Assembly (NCBI RefSeq): GCF_017352095.1
Contig: NZ_CP071463.1
Location: 1,798,001-1,862,000 of the forward strand
DNA from: Natrinema longum
GTDB taxonomy: Archaea > Halobacteriota > Halobacteria > Halobacteriales > Natrialbaceae
DNA: 64,000 bases
Reading direction: 5' to 3'
Numbering within the stretch: the stretch's first letter is position 1; every line of letters starts with the position of its first letter. The notes beneath the pieces were generated by a model, which had not been told where the DNA came from, searched no databases, and worked only from the letters and a program-made list of their open reading frames with translations. The position numbers and the translations under genes were made by a program. This document shows, piece by piece, positions 161 through 47,580 of this stretch.

Positions 161-162
161 CA

Positions 163-18523: not shown

Positions 18524-18600
18524 TACGCTTGTCACCGACGATCGAATAGAAACCGCTACCAAGACGATCGGCAACTACGTTCCGTGATAACAGCGACCAC

Positions 18601-18617
18601 ATATAAATATATTTTTA
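18601..18617 (+). promoter_or_regulatory. AT-rich promoter before the methyltransferase
   Basis: ATATAAATATATTTTTA, 27-43 nt before the ATG at 18644, a strong haloarchaeal TATA region that fixes this start over an upstream in-frame ATG at 18584. Confidence 0.55.
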
Positions 18618-18643
18618 TTATCGATCGTTCCCTCGAGTCGAAC

Positions 18644-19441
18644 ATGGGACGAATCGAGTCGGGACCGGCCGGAACACGACCGGCGGACCCGCTGGGACGA
18701 GCGATGCTCGCTCACCACCGCGACGAGCCGGGTCGGCTGACGTATCGCGACGGCGCGGACGTCCAGGACGGCAACGTCGCCGAGTTCTACTTCTCGAGTC
18801 CCGACTCGTGGGATCGGGAGACGATCGACGTCCTCGAGCGACTCGCCGACCACGAACCGATCCTCGACGTGGGCTGTGGCGCGGGGAAACACCTCCTGTG
18901 GTGGGCCGACCGCGGCATCGACGCGGTCGGCGTCGACGCGAGTCCGAACGCCGTGCGAACGGCCCGTGAACGCGGCCTCGAGGACGTCCTCGTCGGCGAC
19001 ATGTTCGACTTGCCGATCGAGACGGGCGCGTTCGGGGCCGTCCACGCCGTCGGTACCCAGATCGGTCTCGGCCGCTCGCTGGCCGGGATCCGCGAGGTGC
19101 TCGCCGAATTCGCTCGCGTCACCGCCGACGGGGGCGTCGCCGTCGTGGACAACTACGATCCGACGCGACTGGACGAGGACTTCTTCGGCTACCGTTCCGA
19201 CCCGCGTGAGGGAATCGCACACCGGTGTTTCCACCTCGAGTTCGAACGCGAGACGGAAGACGGTGAGCAGCGCCGCGAAGTCGGGCGGACGCTACAGTTC
19301 CTGTTGTGTTCCCCGCCCCGACTCCGCGAGGCGACGACCGAAACGCCGTGGCAGCCGTGTCACGTCGCTCGGACCGATGGCACGGCACATTACAGAACGG
19401 CATTGAAAACGGAGCGACGGCCGAGTGGTGGAACGGAGTAG
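18644..19441 (+). CDS. Class I SAM-dependent methyltransferase
   Basis: A 265-residue protein. Motif I of the Rossmann methyltransferase fold is ILDVGCGAGKHLLWWADRG (about residues 73-91), followed by the acidic strand-2 end AVGVDASPNA and a motif II-like VLVGDMFDLPIETGAFGAVH. The N-terminal 40 residues include RAMLAHHRDEPGRLTYRDG, a pattern I associate with a haloarchaeal subgroup. The substrate (small molecule or protein) is not identifiable. Intact; monocistronic, followed by the PiT transporter after 78 nt. Confidence 0.85.
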   Translation: MGRIESGPAGTRPADPLGRAMLAHHRDEPGRLTYRDGADVQDGNVAEFYFSSPDSWDRETIDVLERLADHEPILDVGCGAGKHLLWWADRGIDAVGVDASPNAVRTARERGLEDVLVGDMFDLPIETGAFGAVHAVGTQIGLGRSLAGIREVLAEFARVTADGGVAVVDNYDPTRLDEDFFGYRSDPREGIAHRCFHLEFERETEDGEQRREVGRTLQFLLCSPPRLREATTETPWQPCHVARTDGTAHYRTALKTERRPSGGTE

Positions 19442-31427: not shown

Positions 31428-32489
31428 TCAACGCGAGCCGAACTCGATGACGGTCTTGATCCGATCCGGTGAGCGGGAAAACGCATCGTCGACGGCGGCC
31501 GGTTCGAAGACGTCCGTGACGAGTGCGTCACCGAACCAGTCGGGGAGCGCAGAGAGCGTTTCACAGGCGGCCTCGAAGTGCGTGACGTGGGAGTTGACGC
31601 TGCCGACGAGTGCTTTGTTGCCCTGAACGAGCGAGCGATGGAGCCGCCCCCCCTCCACGTCGAACGCATCGTCTCCGGGGAGTCCGAGCAACACCCCGAC
31701 GCCGTTTTGCTCGAGTGCGTCGATCGTATCGAAGGCGTGTTTCGCGTAGCCGGTCGCTTCGTAGACGAGGTCCATCGGCTCGTAGGCGGTTGGAACGTCG
31801 GTCACAGGGGTCTCACGCGAGTCGACGTAGGTCGCGCCCACCCGTTCGATGAGGTCGATCGTCGGATCGGGCCGGTCACGGCGACCGAGACAGTACGTCC
31901 GATCGAACTCCGACTGGAGTCTGGCGAGTGTTAGCAGGCCCAGCGGCCCGTTTCCGAGCACGAGCGCTGCGTCACGCTGCCAGTCGAACGCCGACCGCGA
32001 AGCGGAGGCGTGCTCGAGCGCTTTTTCGGTGTTGCTCATCGGTTCGACGAGGATGCCCGTCGCTTCGAACGCGGCCGGAACGGGGACGAGAAACGCCGCC
32101 GGACTCGTGAAGTAGTCGGCCATGTAGCCGTGCGCACCGTCGATCCCGCGTTCGAGACACTGGTCGGGCGGGGCCATATCGGGCTCTCCCCGCCGGAAGT
32201 ACTCGTTTGCGGTGTTCGGCGGGCGGCGAACCGTCGGAACCACGAGCTGTCCTTCCTCGAGGTCGGTGTCGTTCGACGCCTCGACGACACCGACGGCTTC
32301 GTGGCCAAGGACTTGGTGATCGCTGTCGGCGGGGAAGCCGCCGTGATTCCCGTCGATCACCTCGAAATCGGTTCCGTCGATTCCCACTCGGAGCGTTCGA
32401 ACCAACGCTTCGCCGGGGCCGGGTTCGGGGCGGGGTTTCTCTATGAGACGCGGCTGTGAGTCGCCCCGTTCGACGGCGATCGCTCTCAT
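31428..32489 (-). CDS. gdh: Glucose 1-dehydrogenase, haloarchaeal zinc-dependent type
   Basis: Oxidises an aldose at C1 to the lactone/aldonate with NADP+; 353 residues. It follows the haloarchaeal GlcDH sequence closely: RTLRVGIDGTDFEVIDGNHG (D38 zinc ligand), LGHEAVGVV (H63, E64), the catalytic-zinc Glu in ILVEPMSNTEKA, LGNGPLGLLTLA and the NADP-selective CLGRRDRPDPTIDLIE. It is last in an operon after the SelA/DgaE-like and ridA genes; its ATG overlaps the ridA stop. Family members accept glucose and other aldoses. The operon context suggests glucosamine or galactose as possible substrates, which is inference. Confidence 0.92.
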   Translation of the reverse strand: MRAIAVERGDSQPRLIEKPRPEPGPGEALVRTLRVGIDGTDFEVIDGNHGGFPADSDHQVLGHEAVGVVEASNDTDLEEGQLVVPTVRRPPNTANEYFRRGEPDMAPPDQCLERGIDGAHGYMADYFTSPAAFLVPVPAAFEATGILVEPMSNTEKALEHASASRSAFDWQRDAALVLGNGPLGLLTLARLQSEFDRTYCLGRRDRPDPTIDLIERVGATYVDSRETPVTDVPTAYEPMDLVYEATGYAKHAFDTIDALEQNGVGVLLGLPGDDAFDVEGGRLHRSLVQGNKALVGSVNSHVTHFEAACETLSALPDWFGDALVTDVFEPAAVDDAFSRSPDRIKTVIEFGSR

Positions 32490-32866
32490 GGGTCGACCCG
32501 TGCGATCACGTCGATTTCGACGCCGATCTCGATCGGCAGTCGCGATACTTCGATGGCGCTCCGGGCGGGGTAGGGCTCGGTCACGTACTGTTCGTACACC
32601 GCGTTGATCTCCTCGTAGTCGTCCATATCGGTGACGAACACCGTCGACTTGACGATGTTCTCGAGCGAACTGCTGCCGGCCTCGAGAACGGTTTCGATGT
32701 TCTCCATGGTGGCGTGGGTCTGCTCGGTGATGTCGTCGCCGACGATCGCTCCCGACTCGGGATCGACCGGCCCCTGTCCGGAAACGTACACTCGATCGCC
32801 GTCGCGGACTGCCTGTGAGAACGGTCCGATACTTGCAGGTGCGTCTTCCGTTTCGATTTCGTTCAT
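32486..32866 (-). CDS. ridA: RidA/YjgF-family enamine-imine deaminase
   Basis: A 126-residue trimer-forming protein of the RidA family, which hydrolyses reactive enamine/imine products of PLP-dependent dehydratases. Family pattern: APASIGPFSQAVRDGDRVYV, SGQGPVDPESGAIVG, VLEAGSSSLENIVKSTVFVT, and the key Arg in PARSAIEVSRLP. It sits between a PLP enzyme and gdh, overlapping gdh by 4 nt, which suggests it finishes or detoxifies the product of the PLP enzyme. The start at 32866 is chosen because family alignment begins at MNEIETEDAPA; 10 more residues are possible upstream. Confidence 0.9.
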   Translation of the reverse strand: MNEIETEDAPASIGPFSQAVRDGDRVYVSGQGPVDPESGAIVGDDITEQTHATMENIETVLEAGSSSLENIVKSTVFVTDMDDYEEINAVYEQYVTEPYPARSAIEVSRLPIEIGVEIDVIARVDP

Positions 32867-32892
32867 CTTTCGATTACCCAGTATATGACAGT

Positions 32893-32904
32893 ACACATAT
32901 GTGT
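32893..32904. promoter_or_regulatory. Perfect palindrome before ridA
   Basis: ACACATATGTGT lies in the 55-nt gap between the PLP enzyme gene and ridA, 27-38 nt before the ridA start. It could be the TATA region of an internal promoter, an operator, or both. Confidence 0.4.
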
Positions 32905-32921
32905 TTCGGTGACGAGTGGGG

Positions 32922-34142
32922 TCATTCCTGTGACGTCGTCAGGTGTGAACTGACGCGCTCGATGACGTGGTCCAGTTCGGACTCCTCGAGACACATGGGA
33001 TTGATCGTGACGACGTCTTCGTCCAGGCGGTCCGCCCCGACGAAGACGCGAGGCGATTCCGCTCGAAGCGTCCGAACGAGTTCCGTCGCGGAACACGCCG
33101 CGACAGCGGTATCGACGTGAACCGCGACCGCTGGGGCGACCGAGACGTCGCCACCGCCATCGAGTGTCGGATCGACCCCGTGAACGGACTCGAGCGCGGA
33201 AACGATTCGCTCCGCATCACGCCGCCATCGATCGTGAGCGGCGTCGTGGTCGTCCTCGAGGAACGACTCGAGGGCGACGAGGAGACCGACGAGTTCCTCC
33301 TTCCCGACTTTCAGCGGCCGTCCGATCCCCTGTCGCGGGACGCCGTCGAACCGATCGATGTCGACGAGTGCTGCCGGTGGTTGCCAGACCTCGCCGGCGG
33401 CGTGCATATCGAGATGCTGAAGGGCGATCGATTCGACGAGATCGCGGCGGCCGGCGACGATCCCGGTCGTTTGCGGACCGCGGATCGCCTTCCCACCGCT
33501 GAAGACGACGAGGTCCGCACCGTCCTCGATGAACCGGGAGAGGTTCTCCGTCGGCGGGAGTTCCGCGGCCGCGTCGACGATAACCGGGACGTCGTATGCC
33601 GACGCGATGTCGGTAACCGTCGACAGGGCGGGCTCGGTGTACGGTTTCTGGACGTAGCCGATCGCCGCCGTCTGCTCGGTGATCGCACGTTCGATCTCCC
33701 ACGGCTCGACCGCGGTCGAGCCGGTACCGAGGACTCGATCGTTCGTCCCGACGTCGACGATGGTCGCCCCAGCCCCACGGAACGCGTGATCGTAGCCGGT
33801 TCTGTGCGTCCGTGGCATGATGATCTCGTCGGGAATGCCGTCGGTGTCCGGGAGCTGGTCCATCGCGGCGGGATCGTCGCCAGCCAGTGTCGCGGCCGCA
33901 GCGAGAAGCAGACCGGCGTCGGCACCACACGTCACGTAGCCGGCCTGTGATCCCGTCACGGTAGCGATGCGCTCGCTCGCTTTCGCCTGTAAATCGGAGA
34001 GTCTGACGAACTCGGTGGCTGCCCGTCCCATCGCTTCGACGGCCTCCGGTCGGATACGGCTGCCGCCGATCCGTGTTTTCGTTCCGGAGGCGTTGATGAC
34101 ACTCGGGACGCCTAGCTCGTCGTACACGGTCTTCTCACTCAT
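32922..34142 (-). CDS. SelA/DgaE-type PLP-dependent lyase, candidate glucosaminate ammonia-lyase
   Basis: A 406-residue fold-type I PLP enzyme of the L-seryl-tRNA(Sec) transferase-like group, which includes DgaE (D-glucosaminate-6-phosphate ammonia-lyase). Seen: INASGTKTRIGGSRIRPE, TCGADAGLLLAAAA, the Asp that pairs with the pyridine nitrogen (VIVDAAAELPP, D190) and the Schiff-base Lys in VVFSGGKAIRGPQTTG (K218). No Sec pathway genes are near, so selenium transfer is unlikely. First gene of the operon with ridA and gdh, divergent from iclR. A role in eliminating ammonia from a 2-amino-sugar acid is inferred from family and operon. Confidence 0.8.
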   Translation of the reverse strand: MSEKTVYDELGVPSVINASGTKTRIGGSRIRPEAVEAMGRAATEFVRLSDLQAKASERIATVTGSQAGYVTCGADAGLLLAAAATLAGDDPAAMDQLPDTDGIPDEIIMPRTHRTGYDHAFRGAGATIVDVGTNDRVLGTGSTAVEPWEIERAITEQTAAIGYVQKPYTEPALSTVTDIASAYDVPVIVDAAAELPPTENLSRFIEDGADLVVFSGGKAIRGPQTTGIVAGRRDLVESIALQHLDMHAAGEVWQPPAALVDIDRFDGVPRQGIGRPLKVGKEELVGLLVALESFLEDDHDAAHDRWRRDAERIVSALESVHGVDPTLDGGGDVSVAPAVAVHVDTAVAACSATELVRTLRAESPRVFVGADRLDEDVVTINPMCLEESELDHVIERVSSHLTTSQE

Positions 34143-34180: not shown

Positions 34181-34225
34181 AGTTCGGTTGTCAGTTTGTT
34201 TTCGTCCGTTTCTCACGCGGAAACG

Positions 34226-34255: not shown

Positions 34256-35017
34256 ATGCAGAGCGATACCGCGATCGGTGCCACCGTTCGGTCGCTGACG
34301 ATCCTCGAAATCGTCGCCGATTCACTGGAACCGATCGGTGTGACGGCGATCGCCGAGCAAACGGGGCTGTCGAAGGGGACCGTTTCCAAGCATCTATCGA
34401 CGCTGCACGAACTCGGGTACGTCGATCGATCCGACGGTCACTATCTGCCGTCCGTTCGGTTTCTCGACTACGGTATCCGAGCCGGATCGCTGTCCGAACT
34501 GCACCGCGCAGCGGCGGCTCCGATCGACGAACTCGCCGAGATGACGAACGAAGTGGCCGGGATAGCTATCGAGCACGACGGGCGAGTCGTCGACGTGTAT
34601 CTCTCCACGGCACACGCCGACCCGGACTTTCCGGCGTACAATACGCGACTGCTCCACTGCAGTGCCGCGGGAAAGGCGATCCTCGCCGAGCAGTCCGAGG
34701 ACGAACTCGACACGCTTCTCGAGACCCCCAGGACGGAACGAACCGAGTACACGATCACGGCCGAATCCGAACTCCGGGCCGAGCTGGATCGGATCCGCGA
34801 CCGCGGGGTCGCGTTCGATCGACAGGAACAGTTTCCGCGTGTGAACAGCGTCGCCGACGGAATCTCGACCGAGTCGGTGACGGGTGCGGTCTTCGTCTCG
34901 GGGTGGGCTGACGAACTCTCCGGGAAGCGGTTCGAGGAAAACGTCCCCGGAATCCTGTTCAGCGCGAGTAACATGCTGCTCTCGGAGCTCTCCGTGACGC
35001 CCGGATCCCGTCGGTAG
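34256..35017 (+). CDS. IclR-family transcriptional regulator
   Basis: A 253-residue regulator with an N-terminal winged helix (GATVRSLTILEIVADSLEPIG, TGLSKGTVSKHLSTLHELGYV) and a C-terminal IclR effector domain (LHCSAAGKAILAE, FAV-like VAFDRQEQFPRVNSVADGIS, VTGAVFVSGWADELSGKRF). IclR proteins bind small acids or sugars. Its position between the PLP-ridA-gdh operon and the deacetylase gene makes it the likely local regulator. An inverted repeat over the deacetylase TATA box (35055-35076) is a candidate site. Confidence 0.92.
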   Translation: MQSDTAIGATVRSLTILEIVADSLEPIGVTAIAEQTGLSKGTVSKHLSTLHELGYVDRSDGHYLPSVRFLDYGIRAGSLSELHRAAAAPIDELAEMTNEVAGIAIEHDGRVVDVYLSTAHADPDFPAYNTRLLHCSAAGKAILAEQSEDELDTLLETPRTERTEYTITAESELRAELDRIRDRGVAFDRQEQFPRVNSVADGISTESVTGAVFVSGWADELSGKRFEENVPGILFSASNMLLSELSVTPGSRR

Positions 35018-35097: not shown

Positions 35098-35799
35098 ATG
35101 AAGCTATTAGCCATCGTTGCGCATCCGGACGACGCCGACATCTTCTGTGGCGGGACGCTCGCAAAACACGCCGATCGGGGCGACACGGTCACGATCGCCC
35201 ATCTGACCCGCGGCGAGTATGGAGGGATCGAGACGACGACCAGCGAGATCGCGTCCGTCCGCGAGGCGGAGGCACGACAGTCCGGTGAGATACTCGGCGC
35301 GGACGCGGTCGAGTTTCTCGGATTCGAAGACGGACGCATCGAGTACTCCCTCGAGAACCGGCTCTCGATCGTCGAGACGATCCGGACGTTTTCGCCGGAC
35401 ATCGTCCTCACCCACTATCGAGACGACATGCACCCCGACCATCGGGTCACGTCGCGACTCGTCACCGACGCCTACTACATGGCGTCGTTGCCCCTCGTCG
35501 AGACGCCGTCAGATCCCTGCGATCCGGAGAACGTCTACTACTTCGGGAAGCCGACCGCCGAGTTCGATCCGTCGGTCTACGTCGACATCAGTGGCTACGA
35601 GGACGTCAAGGCGGACGCGATCAGACGACACGAGTCTCAGGTCGAGTTCCTCCAGTCACACGGCGGCATCGACGCGGAGTTCGACAACCTCGTAGACGGA
35701 ATCGCCGCGGAAAACACCGTTCTCGGGAAGCAAACCGGCGTCGACAGCGCGGAGGGATTCGTCCCGTTCCACGAAACCACTCGAGCCTATCTCGAGTGA
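35098..35799 (+). CDS. PIG-L/LmbE-family N-acetyl-sugar deacetylase
   Basis: A 233-residue cytoplasmic zinc deacetylase. Zinc/catalytic motifs: VAHPDDADIFCGG (H9, D11, D12) and DDMHPDHRVTSR (H112, H115). The family removes acetyl groups from N-acetylglucosamine-type sugars; in Thermococcus the chitin-pathway deacetylase Dac belongs to it. The C-terminal half, YVDISGYEDVKADAIRRHESQ, is typical of the sugar-active subgroup. The gene lies inside a sugar catabolic locus between iclR and a dehydratase-like gene, supporting GlcNAc or chitobiose as substrate (inference). Confidence 0.88.
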   Translation: MKLLAIVAHPDDADIFCGGTLAKHADRGDTVTIAHLTRGEYGGIETTTSEIASVREAEARQSGEILGADAVEFLGFEDGRIEYSLENRLSIVETIRTFSPDIVLTHYRDDMHPDHRVTSRLVTDAYYMASLPLVETPSDPCDPENVYYFGKPTAEFDPSVYVDISGYEDVKADAIRRHESQVEFLQSHGGIDAEFDNLVDGIAAENTVLGKQTGVDSAEGFVPFHETTRAYLE

Positions 35800-36034
35800 G
35801 CGACGAGCCGGTCGACCGATACTCGAACTCGTTTTGCCGTCAGAACGGTCGACAGCAGTGCCTCGAGATCCAGCGGCGACCGTGTTCACTACCGACGAGC
35901 GTGTCCGGTTCGAGTGGCACACGTCCCGCGTCACGCCCCGTGCTCCCTGCCGGGACGTGGCACGCTGCCGTCTCGTTTCTTCCTCCGAAACGTATCCGGG
36001 CCCAGTCCGCCTCTCCCCGTGAGTGTGCCACTAC

Positions 36035-36056
36035 ATTACAGACATAGGATTGTAAT
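36035..36056. promoter_or_regulatory. Palindrome 1 (ATTACAG...TGTAAT)
   Basis: 22 bp, arms ATTACAGAC and GATTGTAAT around ATAG, with mismatches. It shares its outer ATTACAG/TGTAAT and the central CATA with the second copy 98 nt away. Confidence 0.6.
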
Positions 36057-36153
36057 GAAGGTCGTAGCTATTCGAAACGCGGACCCGATCGACGAGCCGG
36101 GAGCGACTCGAGTACGGTCGTGGGACCACATCATTACAGTCATAAGACTGTAA
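36055..36153 (+). other. Possible micro-ORF or gene remnant (32 codons)
   Basis: ATG at 36055 to TAA at 36151-36153 gives 32 residues beginning MKVVAIRNADPIDEPGATRV. The frame exactly spans the gap between the two palindromes. No family recognised. It may be the leftover start of a deleted gene, a small peptide or chance. Confidence 0.25.
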
Positions 36154-36154
36154 T
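36133..36154. promoter_or_regulatory. Palindrome 2 (ATTACAGTC...GACTGTAAT)
   Basis: 22 bp with perfect 9-nt arms ATTACAGTC and GACTGTAAT around ATAA. It lies 93 nt past the stop of the minus-strand dehydratase-like gene, between two convergent genes, where an operator is not expected. Confidence 0.65.
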
Positions 36155-36246
36155 AGCGATTCGATCCATTCGAAAGCAGGGTCGGCGACCGGCGATCGGA
36201 CGGAGGGCCGTTTCCGAGAGCGAAACAAAAGGCGGAGGCGATCGGT

Positions 36247-37398
36247 TCACCACTCCGCGATACTCCCGTCCTCCTGGCGCCACACCTGATTGTGCCAGTT
36301 GAGATTCCGCTGGGACCGCTCCCGAACGGCCTCCTCGTCGATCCCGATCCCAAGCCCGGGTTCGTCGAGGAGGTCGAGATAGCCGTCCATGAACTCGAAG
36401 ACGGAGGCATCGTCGAGATAGTTATCGGCTGCGCTCTTCGGGGCAGGATAGATGTCGAACCCGTGGTCTTGGAACAACAGGTTCGGAACGGTCGCACTCA
36501 CTTGCAACGAGGCCGCCAGCGCGATCGGTCCGAGCGGACAGTTCGGAGCTACTGCCACGTCGTGTGCTTCTGCCATGTTCGCGATTCGTACCATTTCGGA
36601 GATTCCGCCCGCATGGGAGACGTCGGGTTGTACGACATCGACGCCACCGCGTTCGAACAGCGGCTTGAAATCCCAGCGCGAGTAGAGCCGCTCGCCCGTC
36701 GCCAGCGGAACGGTGGTCTGTGACGCGAGCGTGGGCAAATATTCGAGGTTTTCGGGAAGAACCGGCTCCTCGATAAACGCGATATCGAACGGCTCGAGTT
36801 TCGGTGCGATCCGTTTCGCGAGTGACTTCGAGATCCGCCCTCGAAAGTCGACGACGACATCGATACTCGGACCGACGGTCTCGCGTACGTGTTCGACGCG
36901 GGACACGACCTCGTCCACTACGGCCGGCGGCTCGAGGTGCCGCATCTGGTTGGCCGCGTCCATCTTCAACGCGGTGTAGCCGACGTCGCACAACTGCTCT
37001 GCTTCGGTGCCGACCTCGTCGGTTCGATCGCCACCGATCCACTGATAGACGCGGATCTTGTCCCGCGTCTTTCCGCCGAGGAGTTCGTACACCGGTGCAC
37101 CGAACGCGCGGCCCTTGAGATCCCACAGCGCCTGATCGATTCCCGCGATGGCGCTCATCAACACCGGGCCGCCACGATAGAAACACCCCCGATACATCGC
37201 TTGCCAGTGCTCTTCGATCCGGTGTGGGTCCTTCCCGAGGAGATAGCTGTCCATGACCTCGTCGACGGCAGTCCGGACGGTCGCGGCCCGCCCTTCGACG
37301 ATCGGTTCGCCCCACCCGATCAGCCCGTCCGCCGTCTCGAGTTTCAGGAAGAGCCATCGGGGCGGCACTTGGAACAGTTCGTAGTCGACGATTTTCAT
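36247..37398 (-). CDS. Galactonate dehydratase-like enolase-superfamily protein
   Basis: A 383-residue mandelate racemase/muconate lactonizing protein closely resembling E. coli DgoD along its length (MKIVDYELFQVPPRWLFLKL; FYRGGPVLMSAIAGIDQALW; ending SIAEW). Metal ligands are kept: D in VVVDFRGR, E in FIEEPV, E in TGERLYS. However the two catalytic His of DgoD are replaced: the DFHGR motif reads DFRGR, and the APHCPLGP motif reads APNCPLGP. So it keeps the fold but probably not the standard galactonate dehydration. Start 37398 is set by a TATA box at 37422-37428. Divergent from the ABC transporter operon. Confidence 0.85.
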   Translation of the reverse strand: MKIVDYELFQVPPRWLFLKLETADGLIGWGEPIVEGRAATVRTAVDEVMDSYLLGKDPHRIEEHWQAMYRGCFYRGGPVLMSAIAGIDQALWDLKGRAFGAPVYELLGGKTRDKIRVYQWIGGDRTDEVGTEAEQLCDVGYTALKMDAANQMRHLEPPAVVDEVVSRVEHVRETVGPSIDVVVDFRGRISKSLAKRIAPKLEPFDIAFIEEPVLPENLEYLPTLASQTTVPLATGERLYSRWDFKPLFERGGVDVVQPDVSHAGGISEMVRIANMAEAHDVAVAPNCPLGPIALAASLQVSATVPNLLFQDHGFDIYPAPKSAADNYLDDASVFEFMDGYLDLLDEPGLGIGIDEEAVRERSQRNLNWHNQVWRQEDGSIAEW

Positions 37399-37548: not shown

Positions 37549-38856
37549 ATGACAGACCATACCCGACGCAAGCTACTGCAGTATGCCGGCACAACGACGA
37601 CGCTCGGTCTCGCCGGGTGCCTGAACGGATTCACCGGTTCGAACGGTTCCGGAGATGCGATCCGAGCGCGCTACATCGGGCAGGAACCGCAGGCCGACTG
37701 GCTCGAGGAACAGTCAGACGCCTTCGAGGAGGAGACCGGTATCGAAGTCGAACACGAGTTTCTGACGTGGGCGGACGTGCCGGACTCACAGGTGACCGAT
37801 ATCCAGTCCGGTACTGGGCCGGACGTCGACCACATCGCGTCGACGTTCCTCCCACAACAGGCGAACGCCGACGGCTGGGTCGACCTGTCGGAACTGGATG
37901 CACCGTTGCCCGAATCGGACGGCTTTTTCGACCAAGTGACCGACATCATGGAGTACCAGGGAGCCGTCCACGGCATCCCGTGGTTCTGGGGACCGCGTGG
38001 CTATCTCGAGTACGATCCGCTCGTCGAGCAAGCGGGAATCGACGGCCAACCAGACGACTGGGACGACCTCGTCGAGCAGGGGCAGGCGTTCCGAGCGGAG
38101 TTCCCCGACAGACACCTCTACGCGATGATGGGCGTGAGTTGGGAGCTACCGCGTGCGTTCATCACGTTCCTCTGGCAAAACGGCGGGCAAGTGGCCGACG
38201 AGGAGACGAACGAGATCCTATTCGATTCGACGGAAGGCGTCGAGGCGCTGAACTTCTGGAAGGACCTCATCGTCGAAGACGACGTCATGCCGACACAGAT
38301 CGCCGAGTGGGGGGTCGACGAGTTCGACGGGGCGTTGATCAACGAGGACGTCGGGGCAATCATGCAAGACCTGAGTCCCGTCGATCAGTTCGTCGAGCAA
38401 GGGATGGCGGACCGGAGCGACTTCACGATCGGCCAACTCCCGGCCGGGCCGACCGGCGACCGGTCGACGTTCTTCGGCATGGAAGGGCTCGGCATTCGGC
38501 CGTGGTCGGACAAGCAGGAGGAAGCCGCCGAGTGGATCTCGTGGCTCGCCCAGCCGGAGACGAACGCGGCGTTTGCCGATCGGATCGGTCTGCTGCCGAC
38601 CGTCGAAGCGGCGTTCGACCGCTCCGAATTCGACGACGAACTCAGCCGGACGCTCCACGACGACGTGCTCCCCCATGCGCGGCACTATCCGATGATTCCG
38701 GGGCTGAGCGAAGTCGAGGGCGAACTCGCCGGAACGATCGGCCAGTGGCTCGAGGAAGTCGTCACGGGCGAGTGGGAAGACGGACGGTCCGCGGAACTCC
38801 TCGACGAGGCCGCCGGTGTCGCACAGCAACTCGTCGATCAGGCACAAGAGGGTTGA
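37549..38856 (+). CDS. ABC sugar-binding lipoprotein (family 1 solute-binding protein)
   Basis: A 435-residue extracellular binding protein. It starts with a twin-arginine signal and lipobox (TRRKLLQYAGTTTTLGLAGC, Cys 24). The mature part has the two-lobed type 1 pattern: FEEETGIEVEHEFLTWADVP, GTGPDVDHIASTFLPQQ, MEYQGAVHGIPWFWGPRGYL, FITFLWQNGGQVADEE, MEGLGIRPWSDKQEEAAEWI. Such proteins bind mono- or oligosaccharides. Followed by two permeases. With chitinases downstream, chitooligosaccharide is the favoured ligand, but this is inference. Confidence 0.9.
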   Translation: MTDHTRRKLLQYAGTTTTLGLAGCLNGFTGSNGSGDAIRARYIGQEPQADWLEEQSDAFEEETGIEVEHEFLTWADVPDSQVTDIQSGTGPDVDHIASTFLPQQANADGWVDLSELDAPLPESDGFFDQVTDIMEYQGAVHGIPWFWGPRGYLEYDPLVEQAGIDGQPDDWDDLVEQGQAFRAEFPDRHLYAMMGVSWELPRAFITFLWQNGGQVADEETNEILFDSTEGVEALNFWKDLIVEDDVMPTQIAEWGVDEFDGALINEDVGAIMQDLSPVDQFVEQGMADRSDFTIGQLPAGPTGDRSTFFGMEGLGIRPWSDKQEEAAEWISWLAQPETNAAFADRIGLLPTVEAAFDRSEFDDELSRTLHDDVLPHARHYPMIPGLSEVEGELAGTIGQWLEEVVTGEWEDGRSAELLDEAAGVAQQLVDQAQEG

Positions 38857-38907
38857 TTACGGATGGGGCTCCGAAAGAACTAACATAGATCTCGAAAGCT
38901 ACATATC

Positions 38908-39894
38908 ATGGTACGCGCTTCCTTGCGGTTACGCGAGCGAGTGACCAGCGGTGATCTCGGGCGGTATCTCCCGTTGTACAGTCGACTCGACGAGAAGTAC
39001 CGATACGCGTACAAGCTCCTGTTTCCCGCACTGGCGATGATGTTCGTCGTGCACTTCGTCCCCGTCGTGTGGGGGGTGACGATCAGTTTCATGGGCGTGG
39101 ACGCGAACTACATCGGTGACTGGACGAGCGCGCCGTTCGTCGGCCTCGAACACTACGCCTTCGTGATGGATCCGGCGACGACCATCGGGAGCCGATACTG
39201 GTACTCGATATCGCGGACCGCCCTCTGGTCGTTCGGCGTCCTCGTCGGGACCTACGTGTTGGGGCTGACGGCAGCGTTGATCCTCAATCAGGGGTTCAGA
39301 GGATCGTTCGTCGTTCGAACGCTGTTGTTGCTTCCGTGGATCGCCCCGGCGATCGTGACGTTGAACGTCTGGCGCATGATGTTCCTCTCCGATTCCGGCA
39401 TCATCAACCACGCGCTCATGTCCGTCGGGATCATCGACGAGCCGGTGTTCTGGTTGCTCGGCGATCAAGCGCTGTGGTCGATGACTATCGCACACGTCTG
39501 GATCCAGTTCCCCTGGGTGATGATCATGCTCTATGCCGGCCTCCAGTCGATCCCCCAACAGCTCTACGAGGCCGCGTCCATCGACGGGGCCGGCCGCTGG
39601 GGCAAGTTCCGATACGTCACGCTGCCACAACTCAAACCCGTCTCCGGGGTGGTGATACTCCTCATGTTGCTGTGGACGATGATCAACTTCACGACGCCGT
39701 ACGTGATGTTCGGCGGGAGTCCGCCCTCGTCGGTCGAGGTGACGATGGTGTACATCTATAACTTCTCGTTCAGAGCCTTCGCGTTCGGTCGCGGGGCCGC
39801 GATGAGCGTCGGACTGTTCGTCGTTTCGATGGTGATCGCGACGATCTACTACCGCCGCTTCATCCGGAGCGATTTGGAGGCGGATACCCAATGA
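38908..39894 (+). CDS. Sugar ABC transporter permease, MalF type
   Basis: A 328-residue inner-membrane permease with about six helices. The coupling-helix (EAA) motif is seen in LYEAASIDGAGRWGKFRYVTLPQLKPV. The long N-terminal region includes LYSRLDEKYRYAYKLLFPAL before the first helix. It pairs with the downstream permease, which overlaps it by 4 nt (ATGA). It belongs with the lipoprotein upstream and the ATPase at 42574. Confidence 0.92.
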   Translation: MVRASLRLRERVTSGDLGRYLPLYSRLDEKYRYAYKLLFPALAMMFVVHFVPVVWGVTISFMGVDANYIGDWTSAPFVGLEHYAFVMDPATTIGSRYWYSISRTALWSFGVLVGTYVLGLTAALILNQGFRGSFVVRTLLLLPWIAPAIVTLNVWRMMFLSDSGIINHALMSVGIIDEPVFWLLGDQALWSMTIAHVWIQFPWVMIMLYAGLQSIPQQLYEAASIDGAGRWGKFRYVTLPQLKPVSGVVILLMLLWTMINFTTPYVMFGGSPPSSVEVTMVYIYNFSFRAFAFGRGAAMSVGLFVVSMVIATIYYRRFIRSDLEADTQ

Positions 39895-40766
39895 TTCCCG
39901 ACGAGTGGAGGCCGTCCGAGGAGACCACGGACCGACTGTTCGGACTCGCGTCCAAGGGAGTCCTGCTGACGATCGCGATCTGGGCCCTGTTCCCCATTTA
40001 CTGGATGGTGTTCAACAGCTTCCGAACCCGATTCGAGATCGTCGGCGGCGATCCGAGCTTCACCGAGACGTCGCTTCACTACCAGAACTACATCGACATG
40101 TGGTCTCGCGTCGATCTGTTGGGGTACTTCGTGAACAGTCTCGTCATCGCGAGCACGACGACGGTTATCGCGCTCTTCATCGCCTGTCTCGGCGGGTACG
40201 CGTTCTCCCGGTACCGGTTCCCGGGCCGACAGTACGTCGGTGCATCGCTCATCGGGACCCAGCTGATCCCCGGAATCTTGATTCTGTTGCCGATGTTCAT
40301 GCTGTTCCGGACGATTCACGATACCGTCGGGATCCAGCTCATTCACACCTATCAGGGGATCATCTTCGTCTACACCACGTTCTCCGTTCCGTTCGCGATC
40401 TGGATGCTTCGTGGGTTTTTCGACACGATCCCCCCATCGCTCGAGGAAGCCGCTCGCGTCGACGGCTGTACCCGGTTCCAGGCCCTGTTTCGAGTGGTCT
40501 TGCCGCTTGCAGCGCCGGGAATCGCCGCGACGGGGATGTTCGTGTTCCTGGTCGCGTTCAACGAGGTGCTGTTCGCGTCGGTCATGGCACGAGGCGACGT
40601 GACTCCGCTTTCGATCGGCATCCAGCAGTTCATGGAACGGGACCAGAACCACTGGGGCGAGATGATGGCCGCGTCGACGGTCGCGACGCTCCCGATCCTC
40701 CTCATCTTCGTGGCGTTCCAGAAGCCGATCGTCAAGGGACTGACCGAGGGCGGCGTGAAACAGTAG
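39891..40766 (+). CDS. Sugar ABC transporter permease, MalG type
   Basis: A 291-residue permease with six helices. EAA motif SLEEAARVDGCTRFQALFRV then LPLAAPGIAATGMFVFLVA; N-terminal helix from residue 20 (KGVLLTIAIWALFPIYWMV). Start overlaps the MalF-type gene by 4 nt. A convergent GH3 gene follows, so the ATPase gene is separated from this operon. Confidence 0.92.
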   Translation: MIPDEWRPSEETTDRLFGLASKGVLLTIAIWALFPIYWMVFNSFRTRFEIVGGDPSFTETSLHYQNYIDMWSRVDLLGYFVNSLVIASTTTVIALFIACLGGYAFSRYRFPGRQYVGASLIGTQLIPGILILLPMFMLFRTIHDTVGIQLIHTYQGIIFVYTTFSVPFAIWMLRGFFDTIPPSLEEAARVDGCTRFQALFRVVLPLAAPGIAATGMFVFLVAFNEVLFASVMARGDVTPLSIGIQQFMERDQNHWGEMMAASTVATLPILLIFVAFQKPIVKGLTEGGVKQ

Positions 40767-40869
40767 CCACCCTCTCGAGAGGATCGGCGAGTACGGCCCG
40801 TCCCGGTCGCTCCCTCGTTCGGTCTCGCTGGTATGACGCGACTGCGCTGCCGTCCGACGTCGAACCCGT

Positions 40870-42450
40870 TCAGTCCGCAAACCCGGGAACGGTGACCGGC
40901 AACTGACCGGTCGGCGTCGTCTCGCCGACGAGCATCTCCCCGAGAACGGTGCGTGTCGCCGGCGTGTAATCGTACGTCACCACTGCAGTCGAGACGTCGG
41001 GAACCGTCGACAGATCGTAGGGGTTCCGAACGAGTACCGCCGCGAACCGCGACGTTCGGTCGTCGAGTGCGCCGACCGCTGCTGCCTGTGATTCGTCGGC
41101 CGTCGCGTCGTCGACGGCGGCGATCACCTGTGCGTCGTCGTCGAACGACGGTCCCTCGAGCGGGTCGTCGAACTCGTGACACGTGACGTCGAATCCGACG
41201 GTGGCGAGCGACTCGGCGAGCAGCGATGGCTCGAACTCGTCGTCTTCCGCCGGCGACGCTGGGCCGCCCGACGACCCGACCAGCCGGAGCGGCCGATCGG
41301 TCGTGAACGGGAGCGTGTCGTCCCGGTCGCGAGCGAGCGTGATCCCGCGAGCGGCGATCGCACGCGCGGTCTCGGCGGAACGGTCGGCCGCGTCCGCCCA
41401 GGGCGGGGCTGACGGCGACCGCGAGTCGCTCACGCGGCGGCGTTTGTAGCGGAGGATTCGGTCGACGGCTGTGTCGATCGTTGCCTCGTCGAGTCGACCC
41501 GATTCGACTGCATCGATCACCGCGTCGATCGCGTCCGCCTGTGTCTCGGGTGTGTGACAGACGAGCAGCAGGTCACAGCCCGCCTCGAGCGCTCGCACGC
41601 AGCCCTCCGGTGTTCCGACCCCGTCCGCGATGGCGCGCATCTCCATCCCGTCGGTCACGAGGAGGCCGTCGAAGCCGAGTTCGTCGCGGAGCACTCGGCG
41701 CTGGACCGCGGCCGACACGGTCGCCGGGGTCGACGGCGTTTCCGTGATCGCCGGGAACGAGACGTGCGTCGTCATGATCGCGTCGAGCCCGGCGTCGATC
41801 GCTCGCCGAAACGGCGCGAACTCGACGTCCGCGAGTCGCTCGCGGTCGTGATCGACGACGGGTAGTTCGTGATGGGAGTCGGCACTCGTATCGCCGTGTC
41901 CCGGAAAGTGTTTGCCACAGGCGATGACGCCTCGGGACTGCATCCCCAGTGCCAGTTCGACCCCGAGTTCGCCCACTCGCTCGGGGTCCTCGCCGAACGA
42001 GCGGACGCCGATCACCGGGTTCCGCGGGTTGTTGTTGACGTCGAGGACGGGTGCCAAGTTGAAATTGATCCCGAGTGCGGCCAGTTCGCCGGCGACGGCT
42101 TCACCGGCGGTGCGTGCGAGCGTGGGATCGCCGCTCGCACCGATGCACATCTGACTGGGCAGCTCCGTCCCCCAGCCGAGACGGGAGACGACTCCGCCTT
42201 CCTGATCGGCCATCACGAACGGCGGGACGCCCGGCCCCTCCTCGAGGACGAGCCGCCGTAGTCGGTCGGTAAGCGTTGCGACCTGTGTCGGGGTCTCGAC
42301 GTTCCGGCTGAAGTAGACGACGTTGCCACACTGTCGTTCGGTGATCAGCGTTCGGAGGTCGGCAGTGAGCTCCGTCCCGTCGAAGCCGACGACGAACAGC
42401 TGGCCGACTTTCGTCGCGAGATCCATCTCACTCGCGTCTGTTGGCACCAT
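40870..42450 (-). CDS. GH3 beta-N-acetylhexosaminidase-like enzyme (NagZ type)
   Basis: A 526-residue glycoside hydrolase family 3 protein. The NagZ-group loop CGKHFPGHGDTSADSHHELP carries the His/Asp dyad used as acid/base, and the nucleophile Asp is in GFDGLLVTDGMEM. A C-terminal domain of about 150 residues (from ARGITLARDRDDTLPF) follows the barrel. There is no signal peptide, so it acts in the cytoplasm, fitting hydrolysis of imported N-acetylated oligosaccharides to GlcNAc. Start 42450 is supported by an AT-rich element 26-37 nt upstream (42476-42487); the longer frame to 42522 is less likely. It lies between transporter permease and ATPase genes. Confidence 0.87.
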   Translation of the reverse strand: MVPTDASEMDLATKVGQLFVVGFDGTELTADLRTLITERQCGNVVYFSRNVETPTQVATLTDRLRRLVLEEGPGVPPFVMADQEGGVVSRLGWGTELPSQMCIGASGDPTLARTAGEAVAGELAALGINFNLAPVLDVNNNPRNPVIGVRSFGEDPERVGELGVELALGMQSRGVIACGKHFPGHGDTSADSHHELPVVDHDRERLADVEFAPFRRAIDAGLDAIMTTHVSFPAITETPSTPATVSAAVQRRVLRDELGFDGLLVTDGMEMRAIADGVGTPEGCVRALEAGCDLLLVCHTPETQADAIDAVIDAVESGRLDEATIDTAVDRILRYKRRRVSDSRSPSAPPWADAADRSAETARAIAARGITLARDRDDTLPFTTDRPLRLVGSSGGPASPAEDDEFEPSLLAESLATVGFDVTCHEFDDPLEGPSFDDDAQVIAAVDDATADESQAAAVGALDDRTSRFAAVLVRNPYDLSTVPDVSTAVVTYDYTPATRTVLGEMLVGETTPTGQLPVTVPGFAD

Positions 42451-42540
42451 AGCGCGGTAGTTGTCTTCGCTCGCATGTAATTCTATTGTGCCGACCATCG
42501 CTGCCGTTCGCGGGAAACACAACGTGTCAGTTTCAGACAG

Positions 42541-42549
42541 CTATATATA
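42541..42549 (+). promoter_or_regulatory. Promoter of the sugar ABC ATPase gene
   Basis: CTATATATA lies 25-33 nt before ATG 42574, so the ATPase gene has its own leaderless promoter, divergent from the GH3 gene. Confidence 0.6.
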
Positions 42550-42573
42550 CCTTGGCAATAGCATTCGTAACGA

Positions 42574-43740
42574 ATGGGCCGGATTGACATAGAGAGCCTG
42601 ACCAAAGAGTATCGTACGCCGAACGGACCGCTCCGCGCCGTCGACTCGCTCGACCTCGAGATCGAAGACGGGGAGTTCATCGTTTTCGTGGGGCCGTCCG
42701 GCTGTGGCAAATCGACGACGCTTCGCTGTATCGCTGGCCTCGAGACCGTAACGAGCGGCTCGATCCGATTCGGAGAGACCGACATAACGGAGGACAAGCC
42801 CAAAGACCGGGATATCGCGATGGTGTTCCAGAACTACGCGCTCTATCCTCACATGACCGCCAGGGAGAACATCGCGTTCGGGCTGAAGATGTCGACGGAG
42901 CTGTCGGCCACCGAAATCGACGACCAGGTCGAGATGGCCGCTGAAATGATGGATATCGACGATCTCCTCGACGACAAACCCGGCGAACTCTCCGGCGGGC
43001 AACAACAGCGGGTCGCGCTTGGCCGTGCGATCGTCCGCGATCCAGCGGTCTTCCTGATGGACGAACCGCTCTCGAACCTCGACGCGAAACTGCGCGCACA
43101 GATGCGAACGGAGCTCCAACAACTCCAACACGAGTTGGGGGTGACCACGGTGTACGTCACCCACGATCAGACGGAGGCGATGACGATGGGTGACCGGATC
43201 GTTATCCTCGACGACGGCCAGCTACAGCAGGTCGGCACACCCCTCGAGTGCTATCACCGACCGGCGAATCGGTTCGTCGCGGGATTCATCGGCTCGCCCC
43301 CCATGAATTTCCTCGAGGTCGACGCCGACTCCGAGGAGGGGGCGCTCGTGCATCCGGCGTTTACGCTCCCGCTGCCCGACTCGCTCGCGGCGGAGATCGA
43401 TACTGAAGCCCTGACCCTCGGTATCAGACCGGAGCACGTGTCACTGACGACGACGCCCGAGACACACGCGGAGCCCGACCGGTTGATCGAGATGGAAGTC
43501 ACGGTTACCGAACCGATGGGCGACGTAACGAACGTCTATCTGGACGTCGGCGGGGAGTCGATGACGGTGACTGCTGACGGTCGCATCGGCGTCGATGCCG
43601 GTGAAACGGTGTTCATCCACGTTCCGACGGCGAAGATGCATCTGTTCGACGCCGACTCCGGCGAGTCGCTCAAACACAGCGACGAGTCGGTCGAGCCGGC
43701 GACCTCCCAGACGGCGTCCGGTCGTGCCGAAACGGTGTAA
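42574..43740 (+). CDS. Sugar ABC transporter ATPase (MalK/UgpC/MsmX type)
   Basis: A 388-residue ATPase of the carbohydrate uptake group 1. Walker A GPSGCGKSTT, Q-loop FQNYALYPHMT, signature LSGGQQQRVALGRA, Walker B VFLMDEPLSNLDAKLRAQMR, switch YVTHDQTEAM, then two C-terminal OB-like (TOBE) repeats from about residue 240 (FIGSPPMNFLEVD; LGIRPEHVSL). It would energise the lipoprotein/permease set at 37549-40766, although it is expressed from a separate promoter. Such ATPases can serve several transporters. Confidence 0.93.
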   Translation: MGRIDIESLTKEYRTPNGPLRAVDSLDLEIEDGEFIVFVGPSGCGKSTTLRCIAGLETVTSGSIRFGETDITEDKPKDRDIAMVFQNYALYPHMTARENIAFGLKMSTELSATEIDDQVEMAAEMMDIDDLLDDKPGELSGGQQQRVALGRAIVRDPAVFLMDEPLSNLDAKLRAQMRTELQQLQHELGVTTVYVTHDQTEAMTMGDRIVILDDGQLQQVGTPLECYHRPANRFVAGFIGSPPMNFLEVDADSEEGALVHPAFTLPLPDSLAAEIDTEALTLGIRPEHVSLTTTPETHAEPDRLIEMEVTVTEPMGDVTNVYLDVGGESMTVTADGRIGVDAGETVFIHVPTAKMHLFDADSGESLKHSDESVEPATSQTASGRAETV

Positions 43741-43973: not shown

Positions 43974-45746
43974 ATGAAACGATCACGGCGACGCGTACTA
44001 CGGAACGCAACGACGCTCTCTGCACTGCTAGCAGGGATTGGGACGAGCACAGCCACAGCCAAAGAGTATCCCGCGTGGGATCCGGAGACCGTCTACACCG
44101 ACGGCGATCGGGTCATCTACGACGGCTTCGTCTGGGAAGCGCAGTGGTGGACTCAGGGCGACGAGCCCGGATCGAACGAGTGGGGTCCGTGGGACGAAAT
44201 CGAAGAACACGACGACGGTGACGACGATGGCGAAGACGGGCCGACCGCCCGCATCTCGGTCAGCACCCAGTTCCCCGATCCCGGCGAGACCGTCGAGTTC
44301 GACGCCGGCGATTCCGAGGGCGACATCGAGGACTACGAGTGGACGTTCGACGACGGAACGACAGCGACGGGTGACAGCCTCTCCAAATCGTTCGAATCGG
44401 GACGATACGAGGTCACGCTGACCGTCGCAAACGCCGACGGGGAAACCGACACCGACACGATCTCGATAACCGCTGGACGCACGTCGTCGGACGACCAGCG
44501 GGTCGTCGCGTACTATCGCCAGTGGGCACAGTACGATCGAGACTACTATCCGGGCGACATTCCCTTCGATAACGTGACCCACGTCCAGTACGCGTTCGGT
44601 CGTCCCGAGCAAGACGGGTCCGTGAACCTCGTCGGTGCCAGCCACGGCCAACAGCTCTTCCACGGCGGCAAGGACTGGTACGAGCCCGACCGCGGCATGT
44701 CGTTCGCGGAACACGCAGCCGAAGAGGAGGACACCAACTTCGTCCTCTCGATCGGTGGGTGGGGTGATTCGGAGTTCTTCTCCGACGCCGCACGCACGCA
44801 GGAGAACCGGGAACGGTTCGCGAGCGACTGCGTCGACTTCGTCGAAGAGAACAACCTCGACGGGATCGACATCGACTGGGAGTTCCCCGGCGGCGGGGGG
44901 TGTACGGCGGACGATCCCGTCTGTGACCGCGACAACGTCGTCCGCGAGGGCGACCAAGAGCGGTTCACGCTCCTCTGTCGGGAGGTCAGAGACCAGCTCG
45001 ATGCGGCCGCAACGAACGACCCCGACCGGGACGAGCCGTACGAGCTTACCGCAGCCGTCAGTGCCAACCCGTCGATCGTCGAGGGCCTCGAGCACGAACA
45101 GCTCTCGGACATCCTCGACTTCGTTCTCGTGATGACCTTCGACTTCCGTGGGATCTGGAGCGAGACGACCGGACATCACGCGCCGCTGAAGGAGAACCCG
45201 GACGACCCGTTCGAGGAGAGCGGCGTCTGGAACGCCCAGTCCGCCCTCGAGTGGTACGAGGAACAAGGCTGGGATCCCGACCAACTCAACATGGCCGTGC
45301 CGTTCTACGGTCGGAGCTGGACTGACGTACAGCCCCCCGAAGACGGCTTCGGGACCGGTTCCGACGACGGGCTCTTCCAGCTCTACGAGGGAGACGGCGG
45401 CGATGCGAGCGGTGACGGATCGTACCCGAGCTGGGGCGATCAGGGAACGGATTACGCCGGCGTCTGGGAGTGGTTCGACCTCGAGGGTGACGGCCGACAG
45501 GGAAGCAATCCCGTCGATCTCGATAGCGGAGCCTGGGAGACGTATTTCGACGAGGACGCGGTCACCGCATGGAGCTGGAACCCCGAGGAACGGACGATGA
45601 TCTCCCACGATACGACGGAGTCGATGGCGGCGAAGATGGACTGGCTTCGCGACTCGCCCTACGGCGGGACGATGTTGTGGGCGATCAGCGGCGATACCTA
45701 CGAAGGAGAGCTCATCGAGACGCTCTGGACGACACTCAACGGCTAA
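43974..45746 (+). CDS. Secreted GH18 chitinase 1 (Tat-CBM5/12-PKD-GH18)
   Basis: A 590-residue endo-type chitinase. Twin-arginine signal (MKRSRRRVLRNATTLSALLAG, to about residue 32), then a chitin-binding CBM5/12 module (about 33-78: YPAWDPETVYTDGDRVIY, WEAQWWTQGDEPG, WGPWDEI), an acidic linker, a PKD domain (about 85-165: GETVEFDAGDSEGDIEDYEW), and a GH18 barrel from 175. The catalytic motif LDGIDIDWEFPGG is at about 295-307 with Glu 303 as acid, and SxGG is VLSIGGWGDS. First of three tandem GH18 genes with the same modular front. Confidence 0.95.
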   Translation: MKRSRRRVLRNATTLSALLAGIGTSTATAKEYPAWDPETVYTDGDRVIYDGFVWEAQWWTQGDEPGSNEWGPWDEIEEHDDGDDDGEDGPTARISVSTQFPDPGETVEFDAGDSEGDIEDYEWTFDDGTTATGDSLSKSFESGRYEVTLTVANADGETDTDTISITAGRTSSDDQRVVAYYRQWAQYDRDYYPGDIPFDNVTHVQYAFGRPEQDGSVNLVGASHGQQLFHGGKDWYEPDRGMSFAEHAAEEEDTNFVLSIGGWGDSEFFSDAARTQENRERFASDCVDFVEENNLDGIDIDWEFPGGGGCTADDPVCDRDNVVREGDQERFTLLCREVRDQLDAAATNDPDRDEPYELTAAVSANPSIVEGLEHEQLSDILDFVLVMTFDFRGIWSETTGHHAPLKENPDDPFEESGVWNAQSALEWYEEQGWDPDQLNMAVPFYGRSWTDVQPPEDGFGTGSDDGLFQLYEGDGGDASGDGSYPSWGDQGTDYAGVWEWFDLEGDGRQGSNPVDLDSGAWETYFDEDAVTAWSWNPEERTMISHDTTESMAAKMDWLRDSPYGGTMLWAISGDTYEGELIETLWTTLNG

Positions 45747-45834
45747 CCTGCGGTCTGGGGCCCGTGCCCGGCAACGATCGGGAGCCCCTCGAGCAGCAGC
45801 ATCGACGATCGAACGACACCAGCAACCACAACCG

Positions 45835-47571
45835 ATGAAACGATCACGACGGAACGTACTGAGTACAGCATCGAAAATATCCGCCCTGCTGGCCGGCCTC
45901 GGAGCGAGTTCGGTGGCGACGGCCCAGGAGTATCCGGAGTGGGATCCGGACACCGCATACACGGACGGTGACCGCGTCGTCCACGACGACTCCGTCTGGG
46001 AAGCCCAGTGGTGGACCCGCGGCGACGAGCCGGGCGAGGGCGGCGAATGGGGGCCGTGGGACGAGATCGAATCGTCCGAACCCGAGCCGCCGGCCCTGTC
46101 CGCACGCATCGCCGCGAGCACGTCCCGCGTCGAGATCGGCGAGGCCGTCGAGTTCGACGGGAGCGAGTCGACGGGTGCGATCGACTCCTACGCGTGGGCG
46201 TTCGGCGACGGGACCGAAGCCACCGGCGAGGCCGTCACGCACACGTACGACGAAACGGGCGACTACACCGTCGAACTGACCGTCACCGACGCCGACGGCG
46301 AAACCGACACCACCCGTCTCGACGTCACCGTCCGGGACGAGATCGAAGGGCCGGACGACGACTTCAAAGTCGTCGGCTACTACCCCGGCTGGAAGGCAAA
46401 CGACGAACAGGACTACTACCCGAGCGACGTCCCCTTCGACAAGGTGACCGACGTGCTGTACGCGTTCATCGCGCTCGACGAGAACGGGAACGTCTTCCCG
46501 CCGGAAAACGACGAGACGGAGTTCGACATCCCGCGCCAGACACACGAGGAAAACCTCGAGCAGTTCGCCGACCTGGCGGACGAGGCCGACTGTCGGTTCC
46601 ACCTCTCGATCGGCGGCTGGACGCTCTCGGATAATTTCCACATCGTTGCGGCCGATCCGGACCTGCGGACGACCTTCGCCGAGAGCTGCGTCGAGTTGAT
46701 GCGGCAGTACAACTTCGACGGGATCGACATCGACTGGGAGCATCCCGGCCCACAGCAGGGGCAGTGCCAGTGTGGCAACGACGACGACTACGAGAACCAC
46801 GTCCTGTTGCTCGAGGAACTGCGCGACCACCTCGATCAGGCGGGCGAGGAGGACGGCCAGCACTACTACCTGTCGGTCGCCAACGGCGGTTCCGACTGGA
46901 ACGCCGGGGGGCTTCGCCACGATCGGATCGGCGAGATCTGTGACTCGGTGTACGTCATGGCCTACGACTTCACCGGCGAGTGGATGACCACGATCGGGCT
47001 GAACGCGCCGCTGTACGGTCCCGACACGCATCCGACGAACGACCGCGACGTCTACCCCGACGGCGAACAGTACTGGGCGGAGTACTCCGTCGACGAGTTG
47101 TGGGCCGGCGATCACGGCGAGGAGGGCTACTGGCCCAACCAGTGGCAGTATCCGCCCGCCGACCCCGCCGAGTACGGCGAACTCGTGCTCGGGATGCCGT
47201 TCTACGGCCGCGGCTTCACCGTCGGCGAGTGGCAGTCGCCCGAACTCGGTTCGCGGTACTCGGGACTCCCCGAAGGAACCTGGCACCACCTCCTCGAGGA
47301 CGGCGCGGACCCGACCGGCTCGTTCGACTTCGGTGACATCGAGGAGAACATGCGCGACGAACCCGACTGGGAGGTCACCCGTCACGACATGGGTGAGGTC
47401 CCCGCCCTCGTCAACGAGGACGAGGGGATCTTCATCAGTTACGACGACGAGCAGGCCATCGAGGCGAAAGTCGAGTTCGCCAAGGAACGCGGCATGGGTG
47501 GCGTGATGTTCTGGGAACTCTCCCAGGACTGGAACGGGACGCTCCTGGAGACGATCCTCGAGACGATCTAA
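45835..47571 (+). CDS. Secreted GH18 chitinase 2 (Tat-CBM5/12-PKD-GH18)
   Basis: A 578-residue paralogue of chitinase 1. Tat signal KRSRRNVLSTASKISALLAG, CBM5/12 (YPEWDPDTAYTDGDRVVH, WEAQWWTRGDEPG), PKD (VEFDGSESTGAIDSYAWAFG), and GH18 from about residue 178 (FKVVGYYPGWKANDEQDYYP). The catalytic motif FDGIDIDWEHPGP has its Glu at about 302; LSIGGWTLS is the upstream strand. An insert with CQCG follows the active site. Stops 9 nt before the third chitinase ATG, so these two are in one transcript. Confidence 0.95.
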   Translation: MKRSRRNVLSTASKISALLAGLGASSVATAQEYPEWDPDTAYTDGDRVVHDDSVWEAQWWTRGDEPGEGGEWGPWDEIESSEPEPPALSARIAASTSRVEIGEAVEFDGSESTGAIDSYAWAFGDGTEATGEAVTHTYDETGDYTVELTVTDADGETDTTRLDVTVRDEIEGPDDDFKVVGYYPGWKANDEQDYYPSDVPFDKVTDVLYAFIALDENGNVFPPENDETEFDIPRQTHEENLEQFADLADEADCRFHLSIGGWTLSDNFHIVAADPDLRTTFAESCVELMRQYNFDGIDIDWEHPGPQQGQCQCGNDDDYENHVLLLEELRDHLDQAGEEDGQHYYLSVANGGSDWNAGGLRHDRIGEICDSVYVMAYDFTGEWMTTIGLNAPLYGPDTHPTNDRDVYPDGEQYWAEYSVDELWAGDHGEEGYWPNQWQYPPADPAEYGELVLGMPFYGRGFTVGEWQSPELGSRYSGLPEGTWHHLLEDGADPTGSFDFGDIEENMRDEPDWEVTRHDMGEVPALVNEDEGIFISYDDEQAIEAKVEFAKERGMGGVMFWELSQDWNGTLLETILETI

Positions 47572-47580
47572 TCGACGACA

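Follow-up and report, generated by a model that had tools for sequence, protein, structure and literature searches.

Three adjacent genes of Natrinema longum, encoding a SelA/DgaE-like PLP enzyme, a RidA enamine/imine deaminase, and a paralogue of glucose dehydrogenase (GDH), are probably central to a pathway that degrades a chitin-derived amino sugar by oxidation, without phosphorylating it. All three are complete ORFs on the minus strand of the window, the 64-kb stretch of DNA analyzed here from a genome of 3.59 Mb on one contig. The PLP enzyme (406 aa, 32922–34142) is a proposed D-glucosaminate ammonia-lyase for the unphosphorylated substrate, and the GDH (353 aa, 31428–32489) is a proposed glucosamine 1-dehydrogenase. 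Between them lies ridA (126 aa, 32486–32866), its product assigned by family. The gap between the PLP gene and ridA measures 55 nt (32867–32921). The ridA reading frame runs from an ATG at 32866 to a stop at 32486 and overlaps the GDH start at 32489 in an ATGA on the coding strand (tcat on the given strand, 32486–32489); the order, spacing, and overlap reported in a first-pass annotation of this DNA are thus exact. RidA scores 151 bits against TIGR00004 (cut-off 106) and also matches PF01042. The GDH carries the C-terminal domain PF16912 (Glu_dehyd_C, 287 bits) and is a full-length match to the Haloferax mediterranei enzyme (E = 4e-142). The PLP enzyme matches PF03841 (SelA) and the DgaE family TIGR01437 (E = 3.9e-62), and it falls under the cut-offs for DgaE in two comparisons (210 vs 385 and 193 vs 600 bits).

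The linkage of the trio is not a product of chance. About 13 kb was read around each of 110 haloarchaeal copies of the PLP gene, with RidA counted as near when it lay within 5.5 kb. By this measure, 50 of the 110 loci have RidA nearby and 31 have both RidA and GDH. The order seen in the window (PLP>RID>GDH>) recurs in 15 sampled genomes from five genera, which excludes an arrangement unique to one genome and bears out the expectation that the three genes are conserved together across haloarchaea. Another 16 loci hold the trio differently arranged, 13 as PLP> <GDH <RID and three in other orders. Because the trio is kept in two main arrangements, the linkage evidently outlasts rearrangement. RidA is close to the PLP gene in only 2 of 93 bacterial DgaE-type loci and 2 of 59 other bacterial loci; the resulting comparison, 50/110 against 4/152, gives a Fisher P of 3e-18 that ignores kinship and leaves out a proteobacterial group with a rate of 8/9. 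Other neighbors of the haloarchaeal PLP gene include genes for a PIG-L deacetylase (37 of 110 loci), an acid-sugar dehydratase (26), and an IclR-family regulator (26). At 60 of the loci no RidA lies within 5.5 kb, and at 39 none of RidA, GDH, PIG-L, or dehydratase is close by, so some haloarchaeal relatives may use other substrates. The PLP gene occurs in 98 of 392 genomes of the order and in 6 of 20 sampled genomes of the genus, the latter count marking the locus as accessory.

In the window, the trio sits within a larger chitin/N-acetylglucosamine locus. Divergent from it on the plus strand is the IclR-family regulator (34256–35017), followed on the same strand by a PIG-L/CE14 protein (35098–35799), a proposed GlcNAc or chitobiose deacetylase. 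Beyond a minus-strand enolase-superfamily dehydratase of the galactonate/gluconate dehydratase type (36247–37398), which has no place in the proposed pathway, a sugar ABC transporter is encoded on the plus strand (37549–43740), comprising a binding protein (37549–38856), two permeases (38908–39894 and 39891–40766), and an ATPase (42574–43740). A GH3 glycosidase, probably an N-acetylglucosaminidase, is encoded on the minus strand within this span (40870–42522). Three plus-strand genes for GH18-domain proteins with CBM5/12 and PKD domains follow (43974–48951); they are annotated as chitinases, the third by a weak match. The locus further includes a subtilase and one more chitin-binding protein. 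The nagB gene is absent from all five chitinolytic haloarchaea searched, with positive controls. No lactonase gene was found adjoining the trio in the window; in Halosolutus gelatinilyticus (11595–12656 of the locus), the GDH gene is followed by a lactonase gene, an order that fits a dehydrogenase making a lactone.

The association with chitin extends well beyond this one locus. Among the 392 genomes, 51 carry both the PLP gene and GH18, 47 the PLP gene alone, 12 GH18 alone, and 282 neither, corresponding to an odds ratio of 25 (P = 3e-25, with shared ancestry ignored) and upholding the earlier suggestion of a link with chitinases. Within the PLP-positive genomes, GH18 accompanies the RidA-linked gene in 38 of 49 cases versus 13 of 49 for the others (P = 7e-7, again ignoring shared ancestry).

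An AlphaFold2 model of the PLP enzyme (pLDDT 92, pTM 0.91) identifies DGL (7lc0) and Cap15 (8t7j) as the closest solved relatives, as does sequence, with structural Z scores of 42.2 and 43.4, respectively. The match to 7lc0 (E = 9e-33, 31% identity) and the PLP lysine in an SGGK motif place the protein in the DgaE/SelA fold superfamily, as first annotated. The further suggestion of a DgaE-type elimination on a 2-amino sugar acid is supported in its logic, while the scores stay beneath the family cut-offs. In DGL, the substrate phosphate lies near Arg301, Arg332, and Arg346 and the carboxylate near Arg226 (PMC9529869). The window enzyme retains Arg226 and the PLP lysine (213 in the chain numbering used here, 217 in PMC9529869), but its phosphate site is dismantled (R301A, R332G, R346M). 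Across the 110 haloarchaeal sequences, Glu predominates at position 301, Gly occupies 332 in 109, and Met occupies 346 in 95. Since all three arginines are kept in 93 of 93 classic DgaE-type sequences, their loss makes a phosphorylated substrate unlikely, and it is from this loss, together with gene context, that the substrate of the PLP enzyme is predicted. The window enzyme differs from DGL additionally in a 27-residue insertion after residue 243 and in its genetic partners, which are ridA and gdh rather than the PTS and dgaF genes of Salmonella.

A second set of differences concerns the step at which product leaves. His163 of DGL, present in 93 of 93 classic sequences, protonates C3 so that an imine and not an enamine departs, and the H163A variant releases enamine (PMC9529869). 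The window enzyme lacks the His162–His163 pair (H162P, H163Y), and its loop at these positions is shorter by four residues. The Tyr is conserved and may take over proton donation from His163; release of an enamine is a proposal only.

The phosphate-site changes bear directly on a phosphorylated route, in which a kinase would make D-glucosaminate-6-phosphate, the PLP enzyme would convert it to KDPG, and RidA would be incidental or regulatory. Such a route has been proposed for Natrarchaeobius (PMC12343721) and draws on the homology of the PLP enzyme to DGL. It is nonetheless unlikely here, given the missing phosphate-binding arginines (with Glu the usual residue at 301 in haloarchaea) and the absence of a sugar kinase among the cluster genes examined. 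RidA, moreover, retains the active-site residues Arg105, Asn88, and Glu120 of a deaminase, and its identification as the repressor RutC was rejected on a family score well under the cut-off (TIGR03610, 69.5 vs 169.1 bits).

In the non-phosphorylating route that we favor, chitin would be converted to GlcNAc by way of the GH18 and GH3 enzymes and the ABC transporter, and GlcNAc would be deacetylated to GlcN by the PIG-L protein of the cluster. The dedicated GDH paralogue, on the strength of its family and clade, would oxidize GlcN at C1 to D-glucosaminate. The PLP enzyme would then expel the C3 hydroxyl by β-elimination, yielding the enamine/imine of 2-keto-3-deoxygluconate (KDG), a proposal based on the fold, on retention of the PLP lysine and of the arginine for the carboxylate, and on the loss of the phosphate site. 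By analogy with known RidA biochemistry, RidA would hydrolyze this species to KDG and NH3, which would protect other PLP enzymes and keep flux going. KDG would feed the haloarchaeal semi-phosphorylative Entner–Doudoroff pathway. The sequence of aldose dehydrogenase, 2-amino aldonate, PLP-dependent elimination, and RidA put forward in the first-pass annotation is therefore a supported reading, and nothing was found pointing to an unrelated amino acid as the substrate of the PLP enzyme.

Both partner proteins are, judging from their sequences, dedicated paralogues with diagnostic substitutions (F17 in RidA, N154 in GDH). The genome contains five RidA-like loci. All PLP-linked haloarchaeal RidAs extracted fall into one clade with Phe17 and Ala107 (FNRAE at positions 17/88/105/107/120), the corresponding residues of E. 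coli RidA being Tyr and Cys; the next two RidAs of the genome have Tyr17 and lie outside the clade. On haloarchaeal plasmids, most records or strains with a RidA of at least 60% identity to that of the trio have the PLP gene as well; Natribaculum longum is one record that carries such a RidA without it. The genome likewise encodes two close GDHs, one in the PLP-linked clade and one in the housekeeping clade. Linked GDHs have Asn154, four residues from Glu150, which we take to be a zinc ligand. The housekeeping clade, represented by the H. mediterranei enzyme (2B5V), has Ile154 with one exception. The zinc-site residues D38, E64, and E150 are kept in the trio GDH, as is E114, and all four are common to 2B5V. 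Together, the clade, linkage, and plasmid data indicate that GDH and RidA stay with the PLP enzyme even as the locus is rearranged.

The same chemistry might instead serve a different 2-amino sugar acid, such as galactosaminate, mannosaminate, or a muramic acid derivative, with glucosamine as one source only. A trio in Halorussus limi that is accompanied by an anhydro-N-acetylmuramic acid kinase and a peptidoglycan recognition protein is in keeping with this idea, as is the galactonate-type dehydratase linked in the window; the surrounding GH18 chitinases, GH3 enzyme, and chitin-binding proteins, along with the co-occurrence of the PLP gene and GH18, argue against it and render it quite unlikely for this locus. 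A Cap15-like, O2-dependent reaction, in which the amino-sugar acid would be oxidized or decarboxylated with no elimination of water and RidA would act on the imine product, is very unlikely: Cap15, a monooxygenase-decarboxylase of capuramycin biosynthesis, has the same fold and ties structurally with DGL, reactions differ among members of the fold group (PMC7497351, PMC6384614), and the haloarchaeal host is probably aerobic, but the window enzyme is nearer DGL in sequence (157 vs 122 bits) and lacks the three phosphate-site arginines of Cap15, an enzyme that requires phosphate.

Elements of the D-glucosaminate route have precedent in two systems. In Natrarchaeobius, a chitinase/GlcNAc cluster (DGA, GDH, IclR, "RutC", GAD, CE14, GH18) was described in 2025 in a study that termed GlcNAc catabolism in chitin-utilizing haloarchaea not yet recognized (PMC12343721). 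That cluster matches the present one in gene content, as given in the text and figure legend of the paper, and the predicted conversion of GlcNAc to GlcN, glucosaminate, and KDPG shares its first steps with the pathway proposed here. It differs in invoking an unidentified kinase ahead of the ammonia-lyase and in naming RidA "RutC", a transcriptional repressor; here, loss of the phosphate site argues against the kinase and RidA is assigned an enzymatic role. In the Pseudoalteromonas Ong pathway, the fold-type III PLP enzyme OngC deaminates unphosphorylated D-glucosaminate to KDG, and the RidA protein OngD, also encoded in the cluster, is essential for growth on GlcNAc1A, in a role reported as not known (PMC9537276). 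The Ong pathway thus resembles the haloarchaeal one in substrate, product, and the presence of RidA, but OngC is unrelated to SelA/DgaE and the acid arises from LPMO oxidation rather than from a sugar dehydrogenase. A literature search for a gene encoding an unphosphorylated-glucosaminate dehydratase returned nothing usable. The first-pass statement that no standard pathway accounts for the trio consequently holds in part, in that the RidA step is absent from the Natrarchaeobius scheme, while the same cluster and first steps had been predicted there and RidA figures in a parallel glucosaminate pathway. With the cluster itself known in Natrarchaeobius, the present analysis contributes three points: the phosphate site is lost, RidA and GDH belong to dedicated clades, and the route has a counterpart in Ong.

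The reading advanced here makes the missing kinase unnecessary, assigns RidA a catalytic role, and points to specific residues; it also bears on the role of OngD, essential in marine chitin oxidation. A broader interpretation, in which a clade of SelA-fold ammonia-lyases hands an enamine/imine to a dedicated RidA in a non-phosphorylating archaeal pathway, and in which evolution coupled RidA to a glucosaminate-eliminating PLP enzyme on no fewer than two occasions, using unrelated folds (type I here, type III in OngC/OngD), stands slightly on the favorable side of even. If both unrelated glucosaminate deaminases need RidA, they would constitute a clean natural case of a RidA-dependent catabolic pathway, beyond general detoxification.

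RidA linkage in the wider family follows no single active-site feature. Nine proteobacterial SelA/DgaE relatives keep both histidines and have R346C, and a Rid gene is close by in eight. Chloroflexota relatives mostly lack the His pair and the full set of phosphate arginines, and RidA is near in only 2 of 59. These counts contradict a general rule that loss of His163 creates a need for RidA, and the Chloroflexota also defeat the notion that phosphate-site loss alone predicts RidA. The proteobacterial loci examined contain genes for an amidohydrolase and an amino-acid/peptide-type transporter, and in one of them (L305) the Rid protein is of the PF14588/PF01042 type. Chloroflexota genomes encode several divergent PLP-family paralogues each, with ten matches in one.

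Two plasmids extend the range of contexts. In Halorussus limi (1–18708 of the locus), the genes noted above are joined by PIG-L and a multi-gene ABC transporter, a cluster possibly devoted to archaeal use of bacterial peptidoglycan; because the trio sits in what seems to be a peptidoglycan-sugar cluster, the family may act on hexosamines more broadly. In Halomicrobium urmianum, RidA lies near a broken PLP gene together with a sulfatase and a formylglycine-generating enzyme family protein, and the region may be directed at sulfated sugars.

The locus also contains conserved palindromes. The 64-kb window has exactly three copies of GTTTC-N7-GAAAC (34208, 35975, and 36210), all at this locus. The first copy (34208–34224, no strand assigned), between iclR and the PLP gene, is kept at that position in relatives, and the motif is a putative operator for the IclR regulator. 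It is also found upstream of second PLP copies (74–75% identical) at three loci in full-cluster genomes, with no RidA or GDH nearby. The other two window copies belong to an intergenic element (35975–36226, no strand assigned) that additionally holds both window copies of a second palindrome, ATTACA-N10-TGTAAT, for which 0.12 would be expected at two or fewer mismatches. A small gene considered for the interval between PIG-L and the dehydratase was rejected, its 32-aa ORF lying in a stretch absent from the loci of five relatives. The element separates the PIG-L and dehydratase genes, whose 3′ ends face it, and is conserved in relatives too, though it is the promoter region of no recognized gene.
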